64,000 nt of DNA, taken from the NCBI GenBank assembly GCA_017942035.1, contig JAGAVG010000037.1:62001-126000 (forward strand), in the 5' to 3' direction. Source of the stretch: a bacterium (GTDB lineage Bacteria; Cyanobacteriota; Vampirovibrionia; Gastranaerophilales; Gastranaerophilaceae). A program made the position numbers and the translations under genes. Under the pieces are notes generated by a model. It saw nothing but the letters and a program-made list of their open reading frames with translations, did no database searches and had not been told where the DNA came from. Shown here one piece after another: positions 16,122 to 53,300 of this stretch (position 1 is the stretch's first letter; every line of letters starts with the position of its first letter).

Positions 16122-16155
16122 TTGCAATAACGGGATTTTGTTTTATAATAGAAAT
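16122..16155 (+). promoter_or_regulatory. WYL operon promoter, leaderless
   Basis: TTGCAA (16122-16127), 16 bp, TATAAT (16144-16149), 6 nt, ATG 16156. Confidence 0.8.
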
Positions 16156-17097
16156 ATGAAGGAATTTTTGAAGAACAAAAAAGTCACATACAATTTAATG
16201 TCTTTCACGGGTTTCAAGGCTTTGGTTTTATTTTCGTATTTGTTAGAATCTCCAAAGTCGTATAAAGAAATATGCCAGTATTTTTTAGAACATCCGTATT
16301 TGAACGAAAAAATTTCAATAGATACTTTAAGAGTTTATATAACATCACTAAAAAGAGTTGGCTGTGAAGTAAAAAGGGAGAGAATTGACGGAGTCTCAAA
16401 ATATAGTGTTGTGTCTAACCCCTTTGAACTCACTATTGCTCAAGAACAGGTATCCAGCCTTGTGAAAGTTTATAAAATAATTTCTAACGATTTAACGCTT
16501 GAAGAACTTCTTAATATAGAACTTTTCTTAAAACGTTTGTCTTCAAAAATTAAAAATCCTGAAATTTTTGAAGCTTTTTCACGCGTATCCTTGCTAAAAG
16601 GAGTTGATATTGAACTTTTGCAGGAATTAATAACATTAAGTGCCAAGAAAAAGCAGATTATCTTTCAGTATAAATCTCCACGCTCGGGCATTAAAAATAT
16701 TGAAGTTTTGCTTTCAAATGTTGGAATTAATAATTCTAAAATATATCTTTACGGATATAGCAAAGAATACAACCATGATGCCAGCTATTTAGTTTCAAGA
16801 ATAGTCAAAATTTTGGATGTTAAAAATGAGCCGGATATACTTATTCAATCAACCCCGATAGTTGTTGGATTTGAATATATCGGAGACCTTAGCGATTTAG
16901 ACCTGAAAGATAATGAAAAAATTGTGCAGACTTCAGATAGAGGTGTAATCGTTGAGATAACTTCAACAAATGAATTTATGATAAATCAAAGAATTTTGGG
17001 ATTTACGGATAAAGCCAAAGTTCTTTACCCGCAAAGTTATCAAAAACAATTTATTAATATTCTAAAAGACATGAAAGCGGGGATTTATATTGGCTAA
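16156..17097 (+). CDS. WYL-domain transcriptional regulator, first of a tandem pair
   Basis: A 313-residue DNA-binding regulator. Residues 10-75 form a winged-helix region (TGFKALVLFSYLLESPKSYKE..). Residues 160-225 form the WYL-type SH3-like ligand domain, with degenerate WYL residues (KIYLYGYSKEYNHDASYLVSRI), and a C-terminal WCX-like extension follows. The start at 16156 rather than 16138 is set by the promoter, which overlaps the first six upstream codons. The downstream WYL gene overlaps it by 8 bases, which suggests translational coupling and a heterodimer, as in the PafB/PafC pair that activates DNA-damage genes in actinobacteria. The target genes here are unknown. Confidence 0.8.
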   Translation: MKEFLKNKKVTYNLMSFTGFKALVLFSYLLESPKSYKEICQYFLEHPYLNEKISIDTLRVYITSLKRVGCEVKRERIDGVSKYSVVSNPFELTIAQEQVSSLVKVYKIISNDLTLEELLNIELFLKRLSSKIKNPEIFEAFSRVSLLKGVDIELLQELITLSAKKKQIIFQYKSPRSGIKNIEVLLSNVGINNSKIYLYGYSKEYNHDASYLVSRIVKILDVKNEPDILIQSTPIVVGFEYIGDLSDLDLKDNEKIVQTSDRGVIVEITSTNEFMINQRILGFTDKAKVLYPQSYQKQFINILKDMKAGIYIG

Positions 17098-18010
17098 ATT
17101 ATCAGAAAAATATAATGACTCCTGTATCAAAATATTTGAATTTTTAAAGCTTCTATACAATGACGAAGCTACTTATGAGAAAGTAACGCAGTTACTTGCC
17201 GTAAATTATGATGAAAAGATGACAACAGCAGTTCTTTTAAATAAATACCTTAATACTCTTAAAGTATTCGGGATAAAAATAAAAAAGAAGAATCATAAAT
17301 TTCACATGTTAAATTCACCATTTAAAATACCTTTTGATAAAATTGATTTGCAGTCAATTATGCTGTTTAAAAATTCACTAAACTTATTATCAGATGAAAA
17401 AACAAAAAATAAGCTTGAAGAATTATTGTCTAGCCTTTTTATACGTTTTGACGAAAATGCAAAAACATACGTAGAAAGTCTTGATAATAATAGCTATATA
17501 GATCTTTCATTTTTCTATTCTAAATTTGAAACTCAAATAGAATTATGTGAAAAATATATTAAAGAAGGCCAAAAAGTTGAAATAACCTATCAGGAAAAAA
17601 ATAAGCCTGAAATAACTCTTATTGGGATTCCTGTGGAATTAAAATATTATAGAAAAAAAATATGTTATGTTATTCATTCTCAAAAAGATGGTTTTAATAC
17701 AGAAATCCCGATTGATAAAATTATCAACATGAAACAATCTTGTCAGACAGTTTCACAAGGACTTTCAACTACTGTTGTATACAGATTGAAAGGATCGCTG
17801 GCTAAAAGTTATAAACTTAAAGAATACGAATATTTAGAGCGGAGTGAAGCTGGCGGCAGTATTATAGTTGTAAATAAAGGAGAAGATTGTGACATCCTTT
17901 TATCAAGATTAATAAGATATAATGAATGCTGCGAGATTATTTCACCAAAATCTTTAAAAGAAAAATTGAGACAAACAATTGATAGAATGTTAAGCAACTA
18001 TGATAATTAG
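17090..18010 (+). CDS. WYL-domain transcriptional regulator, second of a tandem pair
   Basis: A 306-residue paralogue with the same layout. The helix-turn-helix region covers about residues 10-75. The WYL domain covers about residues 160-220 (EITYQEKNKPEITLIGIPVELKYYRKKICYVI) and the WCX-like C-terminus contains VVYRLKGSLAK. Translation starts at TTG (17090-17092) inside the end of the first gene, with GCGGGG upstream. The overlap implies co-expression. A hairpin terminator (18051-18083) follows. The two proteins have diverged considerably, consistent with distinct subunits rather than a recent duplication. Confidence 0.8.
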   Translation: MAKLSEKYNDSCIKIFEFLKLLYNDEATYEKVTQLLAVNYDEKMTTAVLLNKYLNTLKVFGIKIKKKNHKFHMLNSPFKIPFDKIDLQSIMLFKNSLNLLSDEKTKNKLEELLSSLFIRFDENAKTYVESLDNNSYIDLSFFYSKFETQIELCEKYIKEGQKVEITYQEKNKPEITLIGIPVELKYYRKKICYVIHSQKDGFNTEIPIDKIINMKQSCQTVSQGLSTTVVYRLKGSLAKSYKLKEYEYLERSEAGGSIIVVNKGEDCDILLSRLIRYNECCEIISPKSLKEKLRQTIDRMLSNYDN

Positions 18011-18033: not shown

Positions 18034-18259
18034 TAAAAATAAAAAATTACGCACCAAATTTTATATTTTGGTGCGAGTTTTTTATAGCCTTATTATACAA
18101 CATTTTCAGACACTTTTCAAGTGGTCTGTTGTCGTTTTTTGTAAAATTTTTGAATTTTGAGAAGGTATGTTTTAGTGAATTTCAGGCCGACATGCACCAA
18201 AATATAAATTATGGTGCATGAATTTAAAGGATAATTTAAGAAAAAAGGAGGATAAAAGT
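18034..18259 (+). promoter_or_regulatory. Duplicated leader module upstream of a pseudopilin gene (copy 1)
   Basis: About 200 bp is nearly identical to the reverse complement of 53079-53300. It contains the terminator-like hairpin, a possible promoter TTGGTG (18068-18073) 17 bp from TATTAT (18091-18096), and a conserved tract around aaggtatgttttagtgaa. A second hairpin CATGCACCA (18191-18199)/TGGTGCATG (18212-18220) and AAAGGAGG before the ATG complete the module. Confidence 0.8.
18051..18083 (+). terminator. Terminator hairpin that is also the 5' end of the duplicated pilin leader
   Basis: GCACCAAA(18051-18058)..TTTGGTGC followed by gagtttttta. The same hairpin occurs at 53261-53290 upstream of another pseudopilin gene, and a degenerate copy is near 35291. 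Confidence 0.8.
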
Positions 18260-18985
18260 ATGAAAATAGAACAAAGAGAGAGCGTAAGTATTAAAGCCGC
18301 GTTCACCTTGGCAGAAGTTTTAATAACTCTCGGAATAATTGGTATTGTAGCGGCGATGACGCTGCCTACCATGGTTAATAACATTCGTCATAAAGAGCTT
18401 GAAACATCATTTAAAAAGGCTTATTCATCAATAAGTCAGGCATTAAAAATGTATGAAGCAGAAAATGGAGTTCCGCTTATGGGAACCGAATTGGCATATT
18501 TAAGCTTAAAACCATCAATAATGCCTTACTTTAAAACTGTAAAAGATTGCGGCTTTGGTCATGGTGATACGACAACTACTCCATGTGTAATAAGTACTGA
18601 GGATTTAGATGACGATGAGAAAAAGAACTATACTGCAACTTACAAAACATTCTCCGGGAATAATGATGTGCACCCAAATTATTTTGACGACGGTCAATTT
18701 GTAATAAATGATGGAATGCTGATTTTATTGGAAAATTATCAAGGACGTGCCTATATTTCAGTTGATGTAAATGGGCATAATAAAAGACCAAACAAATGGG
18801 GGCATGATTTATTTACATTTCAATTGACTAATATTGGTAAACTATTACCTATGGGAGTAGAAGGCACAGATTTTTATAGCAGTGATAATTTATACTGTTC
18901 TAAAACTTCTACGAGTATTGATAATGGTGCCGGTTGTACGGCAAAAGCTTTATCTGATCCAAATTATTTCAAAAATCTGCCGTAA
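18260..18985 (+). CDS. Type IV pilin-like (pseudopilin) protein
   Basis: A 241-residue secreted or pilus-subunit protein. The prepilin N-terminus ends in KAA before FTLAEVLITLGIIGIVAAMT, which gives the methylated Phe, the conserved Glu5 and a long hydrophobic helix for membrane retention and assembly. The residue before the cut is Ala rather than the usual Gly. The C-terminal head has Cys pairs (DCGFGHG, PCVIS, LYCSK, AGCTAK) likely to form disulfides. The ATG at 18260 was chosen for its AAAGGAGG. Two paralogues lie in the window, at 23527 and 52404. No pilus assembly ATPase or peptidase gene is nearby, so the machinery is encoded elsewhere. Confidence 0.85.
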   Translation: MKIEQRESVSIKAAFTLAEVLITLGIIGIVAAMTLPTMVNNIRHKELETSFKKAYSSISQALKMYEAENGVPLMGTELAYLSLKPSIMPYFKTVKDCGFGHGDTTTTPCVISTEDLDDDEKKNYTATYKTFSGNNDVHPNYFDDGQFVINDGMLILLENYQGRAYISVDVNGHNKRPNKWGHDLFTFQLTNIGKLLPMGVEGTDFYSSDNLYCSKTSTSIDNGAGCTAKALSDPNYFKNLP

Positions 18986-26088: not shown

Positions 26089-26162
26089 AAATTTTATCTT
26101 CATGTTTTTATAGCCTTTGTAAAAACACCTATAGAGTAAAAGGTGAGAAAGGAAGGTTAAAA

Positions 26163-26708
26163 ATGAAAAACACAGTAGATCCAATTCGCAGCAGAGTGAA
26201 AATTAGATTGGTAGAGCAGTATTTGGCTCAAACATGTATGAGGGACAAGCTTATTTTTGCGTTAGGCATAAATAGCGGACTGAGAGTATCGGACATTTTA
26301 GGCTTAGATGTTAAGGATGTTAAAAACAAAACTCATATTGAGATTAAGGAAAAAAAGACAGGCAAGTTTAAAAGGTTCCCGTTAAATAGAAAAATGGCAA
26401 AACTGTTGAAAGAATATACCAGAGAATGCGAAAATGATGATCCTCTCTTTATGAGTCAAAGAAATTACAGACTTGACAGATCACAGGTTTACAGAAAAAT
26501 AAATCAGGCCTGCCGCGCTGTTGGAATTGGTGGTAACATTGGAACTCACACTATGAGAAAAAGTTTCGGTTATCATCACTATAAGAAATATAAAGATGTT
26601 GCAATGCTTCAATTAATATTCAACCATTCAACTCCGAATATTACTTTAAGATATATTGGAATTGACCAGGACGAAATAGACGATAGTTATAAACATTTTG
26701 AATTATAA
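26163..26708 (+). CDS. Small tyrosine recombinase (catalytic domain only)
   Basis: A 181-residue site-specific recombinase without the usual N-terminal core-binding domain. The catalytic set is complete: Arg in SGLRVSDIL, Lys in EKKTGKF, HTMRKSFGYH (His-x-x-Arg), His in FNHSTPNITLRYIG and the Tyr nucleophile in RYIGI. Short solitary recombinases of this type are common in firmicute phages and plasmids, where they resolve multimers or act with integrative elements. GAAAGGAAGG precedes the ATG and a strong terminator follows at 26747-26772. No attachment repeats or other mobile genes are visible around it. Confidence 0.88.
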   Translation: MKNTVDPIRSRVKIRLVEQYLAQTCMRDKLIFALGINSGLRVSDILGLDVKDVKNKTHIEIKEKKTGKFKRFPLNRKMAKLLKEYTRECENDDPLFMSQRNYRLDRSQVYRKINQACRAVGIGGNIGTHTMRKSFGYHHYKKYKDVAMLQLIFNHSTPNITLRYIGIDQDEIDDSYKHFEL

Positions 26709-35290: not shown

Positions 35291-35320
35291 ATGCACCAAA
35301 TTCTATATTTTGATGCGAGT
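35291..35320 (+). terminator. Degenerate copy of the GCACCAAA hairpin
   Basis: tgcaccaaattctatattttgatgcgagttttt resembles the terminator hairpins at 18051 and 53261. It is followed by a repeat (attctgaaacac..) that recurs at 47253. Confidence 0.55.
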
Positions 35321-52403: not shown

Positions 52404-53078
52404 CTATTTTTTCAAATAATCCATGTTGCCATTTGATAGTATCCAATCAGCACAACCAAATCCTATGCTATTTTTTGTGCATTGTTCATAATCTTGATAT
52501 GCCTTTACTTTATTTCCTACAAATTCAAATAGAAAAATATCTTTACCAACAACATTTGGCTGTTTTAGACCATTTACGTCAATCCAGAATTCACCTTTTA
52601 ATTTATCATCACCAAAAGCTTGAATAGACAAACTTATTCCATTTGAGAGGATTACATTGTAATAAGTTGTTATTTTATTAAAATCTCTTTCTTTAGAACC
52701 ATTCAGACGTTTTACGTGTTCTGCAAAACAACCATCTTTATCATATCCACAGTTTTTTGCAAGCTTAAGTTTATTTATAATTACATCAATTTTGTACGCA
52801 CGGGTTATTAATGGAGTTTCGTCCCTTCCCTCTAATACATGCCGATTTTCAATAACCTCTTCGGTTTCCCAACCGCTAACATCACCATTTTCAGCAATAG
52901 CAAGATTAATTGCCTGAGACATAATTGAATAAGCCGCCTTAACCTTGTTAACCGTAACCTGTTCTTGATGTTTCTGAATCAATGCCGGCATGGTCATCGC
53001 CGCAACAACGCCGATTATTCCAAGGGTGATTAGAACCTCTGCAAGGGTAAATGCGACCTTCTTGTCCTCTATATTCAT
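52404..53078 (-). CDS. Type IV pilin-like (pseudopilin) protein
   Basis: A 224-residue prepilin-like protein. The leader MNIEDKKVA precedes FTLAEVLITLGIIGVVAAMT; the residue before the cut is Ala, as in the 18260 paralogue. The head carries Cys pairs (KNCGYDKDGCF, EQCTKN, FGCAD), and IDVNGLKQPNVVGKDIF is shared with the 23527 paralogue. ATG at 53078 has TGGAGG upstream. The upstream leader is nearly identical to that of the 18260 gene although the two heads are very different, pointing to duplication or conversion of the 5' part. Confidence 0.85.
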   Translation of the reverse strand: MNIEDKKVAFTLAEVLITLGIIGVVAAMTMPALIQKHQEQVTVNKVKAAYSIMSQAINLAIAENGDVSGWETEEVIENRHVLEGRDETPLITRAYKIDVIINKLKLAKNCGYDKDGCFAEHVKRLNGSKERDFNKITTYYNVILSNGISLSIQAFGDDKLKGEFWIDVNGLKQPNVVGKDIFLFEFVGNKVKAYQDYEQCTKNSIGFGCADWILSNGNMDYLKK

Positions 53079-53300
53079 ACTATTATCCTCCATTTTTCTT
53101 AATTTGCCGTTTAAATTCATGCACCATAATTTATATTTTGATGCATGTCGGCCTGAAATTCACTAAAACATACCTTCTCAAAATTCAAAAATTTCACAAA
53201 AAACAACAAACAACCACTTGAAATGTGGCGGAAAATATTGTATAATAAGGCTATAAAAAACTCGCACCAAAATATAAAATTTGGTGCGAGTTTTTGCTAT
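53079..53300 (-). promoter_or_regulatory. Duplicated leader module upstream of a pseudopilin gene (copy 2)
   Basis: Reverse complement of about 200 bp shared with 18034-18259. It contains the CTCGCACCAAA/TTTGGTGCGAG hairpin (53261-53290), the TTGGTG and TATTAT boxes, the aaggtatgttttagtgaa tract and the hairpin 53118-53147, whose single base change is a G-U wobble on the transcript. Confidence 0.8.

Follow-up and report, generated by a model that had tools for sequence, protein, structure and literature searches.

Prepilin leaders in a Gastranaerophilaceae genome form a large family of putative promoter switches

The window, that is the whole stretch of 64,000 nt analysed here, contains two similar leaders with a prepilin gene after each: copy 1 at 18034-18259 (+) and copy 2 at 53079-53295 (-), which are 92% alike. 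Both lie where the initial annotation had reported two alike leaders before prepilin genes, and the two hairpins, the conserved tract and the lone hairpin near 35291 that it described exist as well. The order of elements within the leader is an A-tract, hairpin 1 (GCACCAAATTTTATATTTTGGTGC), a segment of ~120 bp, hairpin 2 (TGCACCAAAATATAAATTATGGTGCA) and a right flank, which is of type A (GAATTTAAAGG..GGAGG) or type B (GAAAATTTAAACGTCAGTTTATGGCTGG..) and contains a ribosome-binding site in both. On the opposite strand hairpin 2 reads GCACCATAATTTATATTTTGGTGC and has GCACCA and TTTATATTTTGGTGC in common with hairpin 1; hence, the two are inverted repeats with an asymmetric centre, which is the form of a putative site-specific recombination site. 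Sites of this hairpin type consist of the 8-bp arms GCACCAAA and TTTGGTGC around an asymmetric, AT-rich centre and follow the pattern GCACC...TTTATATTTTGGTGC. The features are listed below; where no other basis is given it is the sequence.

18036..18049 (+): A-tract of copy 1 outside hairpin 1 (terminator T-run on the - strand)
18051..18074 (+): hairpin 1 of copy 1, left recombination-type site GCACCAAATTTTATATTTTGGTGC, inverted relative to hairpin 2; the ON junctions on contigs C77 and C1 lie inside such sites
18092..18120 (-): predicted promoter of copy 1, OFF; -35 TTGAAA at 18115-18120, 17-bp spacer, -10 TATAAT at 18092-18097
18193..18218 (+): hairpin 2 of copy 1, right recombination-type site TGCACCAAAATATAAATTATGGTGCA; pairs of near-identical sites also bound segments in other genera
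18247..18259 (+): ribosome-binding site of prepilin gene 1; type-A right flank, common to many loci
18260..18985 (+): prepilin gene 1, leader peptide followed by A|FTLAEVLITLGIIGIVAAMTLP; PF07963 at 19.8 bits, above the cut-off in the whole-genome search
26163..26708 (+): P0001, candidate invertase, a tyrosine recombinase of 181 aa with the catalytic domain only; PF00589
35292..35317 (+): solitary degenerate site of the hairpin-1 type, lacking both a promoter segment and a right-hand site
52404..53078 (-): prepilin gene 2
53120..53145 (-): hairpin 2 of copy 2, right recombination-type site (G000:C69:115120-115145)
53218..53246 (+): predicted promoter of copy 2, directed away from prepilin gene 2, OFF; -35 TTGAAA at 53218-53223, -10 TATAAT at 53241-53246 (C69:115218)
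53264..53287 (-): hairpin 1 of copy 2, left recombination-type site

Immediately upstream of leader copy 1, two neighbouring genes (16138-18010) have weak matches to the WCX domain and are possibly WYL-type regulators.

Distribution of the leader and the prepilin repertoire

The genome that holds the window comprises 1,994,118 bases in 84 contigs (2.0 Mb). A BLAST search of this genome gave 40 near-full leader copies at 89-95% identity, the first 40 being scored. A strict pattern for the promoter core matched 103 times genome-wide (reversed-pattern control, 0), and the fetched stretches of the genome contained 110 promoter cores. The ~200-bp leader is thus present in about 110 copies, so that the two loci described initially are real but no mere pair. 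The genome search with the leader that the initial annotation had suggested hence ended in the opposite of its 'no further copies' case, yet the whole leader was absent from 98 relatives, both congeners included. About 110 copies in one species and none in its congeners indicate that the cassette must have spread between loci, and did so after their split.

Among 100 right flanks, 87 run into a prepilin motif and the remaining 13 reach a contig end within 200 bases; a prepilin gene therefore follows all 87 leader copies that could be scored. The leader has a constant position relative to the prepilin start codon. This position argues against a MITE-like transposable element with hairpin ends, which the many dispersed, similar copies with inverted ends might otherwise suggest; moreover, the left A-tract with the terminator and the right ribosome-binding site belong to the conserved context, and no leader copies with target-site duplications were seen away from prepilin genes. 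We consider such an element extremely improbable. At one locus (L122, C11:1-480), a left-pointing leader adjoins on its other side a prepilin gene that itself lacks a leader.

In the genome, PF07963 matches above cut-off number 112 and identify type IV pilin-like prepilins. Across the 109 complete mature products the 30-aa heads are 78% identical on average, while the bodies share a median of 44% identity with their nearest neighbour; the prepilins are a repertoire and not recent duplicates. Their FTLAEVLITLGIIGIVAAMTLP heads presumably resemble those of gut Gastranaerophilales/Melainabacteria. Prepilin expansion is common in the family, with 48-93 PF07963 matches in five genomes (G009, G042, G003, G015 and G059), and the two congeners have 25 and 16. 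None of the 20 prepilin upstream regions checked in G009 (93 PF07963 hits) had a leader in common; coding heads were shared instead.

In most of the prepilins, palindromic repeats encode insertions that lie after the start codon and before the cleavage motif, e.g. NPSPQPSPTRGEG, SRVDFSLPEKLDC..LAMTK and TCHAELVSASHDTEIPKQVRNDM. The leader peptides are 9-135 aa long (median 47). Of 86, 85 keep an open reading frame in phase, whereas stops interrupt every one of the 138 alternative frames of the long ones. Repeat mosaics of this kind, in frame and upstream of the cleavage site, occur genome-wide (e.g. L045, L057, L058 and L065), and in some leader peptides the cleavage motif is preceded by another copy of itself (AFTLAEV-FSSHFAGRRKT-AFTLAEV; L069, L065 at C75:81825 and L015 at C77:47845). 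The palindrome TAGACTTTAGTCTA, which encodes VDFSLP in leader peptides, is also present at window positions 799, 8456, 11936, 12315 and 47211. Prepilin peptidase should remove the part before the cleavage site from the mature protein, which may be why repeats are tolerated there. Rickettsia palindromic elements are likewise palindromic repeats in frame within coding sequences; here, by contrast, the repeats stand before a peptidase cleavage site, in a part expected to be absent from the mature prepilin.

Promoter direction and orientation of the segment

The initial annotation had pointed to a conserved promoter-like pair. A promoter is indeed predicted in the segment, but the best one, TTGAAA-N17-TATAAT, lies on the opposite strand and reads away from the pilin. 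With the copies anchored only on the downstream AAGGCTATA, the positions of its -35 and -10 hexamers are 97-100% conserved among 110 copies, several spacer positions falling to 42-79%, and the spacer is 17 nt long in 89 of 90 copies. Scanning the whole genome collection, which may omit the records of this genome, for this promoter gave only scattered matches, in unrelated genomes. In the common orientation a weaker pair, TTGGTG-N17-TATTAT, faces the pilin; were it the working promoter, the labels ON (promoter towards the prepilin gene) and OFF (promoter away from it) used here would be wrong. We rejected it for being weaker than the reverse promoter and fitting the junction data less well.

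Beyond hairpin 1, at least 4 T follow on the promoter strand in 95 of 98 outer left flanks, and the 3′ end of the OFF transcript from a representative copy folds at -16 kcal/mol, as against -4.5 for shuffled sequences (z -5.4). The fixed flank of the right site has no T-run. Judged by the predicted promoter direction and terminator, both copies in the window are in the OFF state.

The promoter lies between the inverted repeats, as in an inverton, and the assembly contains the segment in both orientations relative to its flanks. Promoter-proximal ends were joined to the left terminator flank in 98 cases and to the flank with the ribosome-binding site in two (C1 and C77), with three not placed. 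On C77 (56.7-57.1 kb, at 57.0 kb) the segment is completely and exactly inverted, the A-tract and ribosome-binding-site flanks are in place and the promoter faces the prepilin gene (ON). Left-hand ON junctions were found on C77, C47 and C82, and right-hand ones also at the ends of C1 and C27, the latter being the third. The endpoints of the inversions are exactly at the centre of the site.

Two further cases come from contig ends of an assembly made with k = 141, where a true inverted duplication or two loci with a common segment would look similar. On C82, bases 1-136 are the reverse complement of bases 256-391 (136/136), such that both segment ends, and with them both junction types, are on the same left flank; most simply, the sample therefore contained both orientations. 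Contigs C17 and C1 end in an identical 141-bp segment that is joined to opposite flank types. Since copies differ at a median of 16 in 130 positions, the two contigs share either one segment or one that had only just been copied; a reading as one locus was not retained, as a segment common to two loci would give the same picture. The TATAGAAAACTCGC variant occurs at five places, so that C27 can be placed only tentatively as the right flank of the C82 locus.

Hairpin 1 is almost invariant (81 full copies), whereas the arms of hairpin 2 vary. The initial annotation had noted a change in hairpin 2 that keeps pairing through G-U and had proposed a test for covariation. In 84 copies the combinations of inner and outer arms were 36/18/16/14, without covariation (Fisher p = 0.25); because the arms vary independently, G-U pairing is no evidence of RNA structure. 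Together with the lack of any Rfam match at the leader this led us to reject an RNA element. The earlier idea of a regulatory module of a pilin regulon fares better in its outline, about 110 copies with all scorable ones before prepilin genes, than in its mechanism of terminator plus RNA hairpin, which is unsupported. A cis-regulatory leader that does not invert, with an upstream terminator, a pilin-facing promoter and a 5′UTR hairpin kept by selection, would agree with the high conservation, the good terminator formed by hairpin 1 and the forward promoter-like pair. It is very unlikely in view of the complete inversion on C77 and the ON junctions on four other contigs, of the better promoter pointing away from the pilin, and of the hairpin-2 and Rfam results.

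The second idea of the initial annotation, 5′-end swapping by a conversion cassette, goes beyond what the pattern requires, although the cassette must have spread between loci. Formulated as a rival, conversion or duplication would spread promoter and 5′ end among pilin genes, and the inverted copies would be due to incidental recombination at palindromes. The absence from congeners beside about 110 copies here and the identical or near-identical segments at different loci fit this, as does a relative (G030) in which leader and pilin head are common to two places. Conservation of the leader stops, however, at the hairpins and the flank with the ribosome-binding site and not within the pilin body, and the exact position of the inversion endpoints also speaks against it. 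We regard this explanation on its own as improbable; cassette spread and inversion are not mutually exclusive. The leader is, very probably, an inverton, i.e. a phase-variable promoter switch that recombines between hairpins 1 and 2.

Conservation of the site and candidate recombinase

Among 194 genomes, the site alone was found in four more, all of other genera, while a reversed control gave no match. In G030, near-identical sites ahead of a prepilin gene enclose a 247-bp segment of unrelated sequence; this segment has opposite orientations in two contigs, which may be two loci since the left flanks differ. In G104 and G123, pairs of sites 166 and 145 bp apart precede other genes. It is the site and not the segment that is common to genera, as expected of the predicted recombination site.

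Among the enzymes that might act on these sites is P0001, a tyrosine recombinase matching PF00589 with 96.7 bits, in which the residues R, K, H, R, H and Y are present as read by eye. It has the size of FimB but missed the cut-offs of the NCBIfam models NF007371 and NF007370 for FimB/FimE-type tyrosine DNA invertases (48 and 30.9 bits vs 222 and 221). Homologues are common in the family, though not universal; in the congener G002, matches do not exceed the Xer level. In relatives, about 12 of the 29 loci with homologues have a pair of inverted repeats, mostly 93-160 nt apart, that starts 6-80 nt downstream of the recombinase gene, and at two of the closest loci the arms, ATGCACCC and AT(G/A)CA(A/C)CAAA, resemble the TGCACCA found here. 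These adjoining repeats and their arms make P0001 the leading candidate for the invertase, an assignment towards which we lean slightly. GCACC palindromes near enzymes of the P0001 type numbered 3 against 0.34 expected, with a shuffle maximum of 3, a link that is not clear-cut and was set aside.

It is quite possible that the switch is real and flipped by another enzyme, namely a serine recombinase, a prophage integrase or XerC/D. The genome encodes five serine-recombinase loci and four other tyrosine recombinases, two XerC/D-like and two of prophage size, and no inverton adjoins the P0001 gene in this genome. P0001 is, on the other side, the only small tyrosine recombinase that is neither Xer-like nor of prophage size, and it is its relatives that form modules of recombinase and inverted repeats, two of the closest with ATGCACC-like arms.

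Two observations concern such modules and the surroundings of the gene. Just upstream of the recombinase gene (26100-26125 of the window), TTTTTATAGCCTT matches the end of the leader segment over 13 bases, which may be a remnant or chance. In the relative G015, a module of recombinase and inverted repeats (L177, 2073-2258) precedes a DNA methyltransferase-like gene and is a possible phase-variable restriction-modification system.

Proposed mechanism and relation to known systems

In the mechanism that we propose, hairpins 1 and 2 would be inverted copies of one site-specific recombination site, and recombination between them would flip the ~120-bp segment with its TTGAAA-N17-TATAAT promoter. 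In the common orientation the promoter would fire away from the pilin and be stopped at once by hairpin 1 and the T-run of the left flank (OFF), whereas after inversion it would read through the right site into the ribosome-binding site and the prepilin gene (ON). As the about 110 switches share one family of sites, one recombinase, most likely the 181-aa enzyme of the window, could act on all of them, and each cell would express a small, changing subset of the diverse pilin repertoire. We infer from the DNA that an enzyme inverts the segment and still does so, and likewise the identity of this enzyme, the activity of the promoter and the effect on pili.

Promoter inversion is an already known form of phase variation. 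The fimS element of E. coli is an invertible pilus-gene promoter served by the tyrosine recombinases FimB/FimE of ~200 aa, and thus resembles the proposed switch and its candidate enzyme; it differs in being a single locus with adjacent recombinases and in controlling chaperone-usher fimbriae instead of type IV-like prepilins. The Mpi system of Bacteroides fragilis reportedly has one serine invertase and multiple promoters. Like the proposal made here it has a single trans-acting enzyme that serves many surface-structure promoters, but these belong to capsule operons at far fewer loci and the enzyme is a serine recombinase, in contrast to the pilins and the tyrosine recombinase candidate of the present genome. 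The Mpi system is cited (as Coyne 2003) in PMC12632263. Among gut bacteria, invertons of the PhaseFinder type number 181 in one Mitsuokella genome, and the largest homologous inverton group of a 125-strain survey has 72 members over all strains (PMC11892184). As in the leaders, their promoter lies between short inverted repeats before genes for surface structures, and tyrosine recombinases are among the candidate invertases; unlike them, about 110 switches in a single genome have one site and one promoter segment, all before prepilin genes. An incomplete search of the literature showed invertons to be widespread but yielded no comparable family of pilin switches.

Pilin contigs break at switches in assemblies of such lineages. 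In a genome of 2 Mb, a family of about 110 switches that have a single site and all control pilin-like genes would be an extreme case of phase variation. Pilus coats in this lineage would then be combinatorial, which would explain its capacity for many diverged pilins, and the means by which a genome withstands more than 200 recombination sites would become open to experiment. Because nearly all switches point away from the pilin-like gene and a handful towards it, the cell apparently maintains a very large stock of different pili, most of it silent. More speculatively, and in our view rather doubtful, one trans-acting tyrosine recombinase might use the more than 200 near-identical sites for flipping about 110 promoters, swapping segments between loci and rearranging chromosome arms, amounting to a programmed combinatorial pilus coat together with genome shuffling, with the leader peptides as a landing ground for palindromic repeats.
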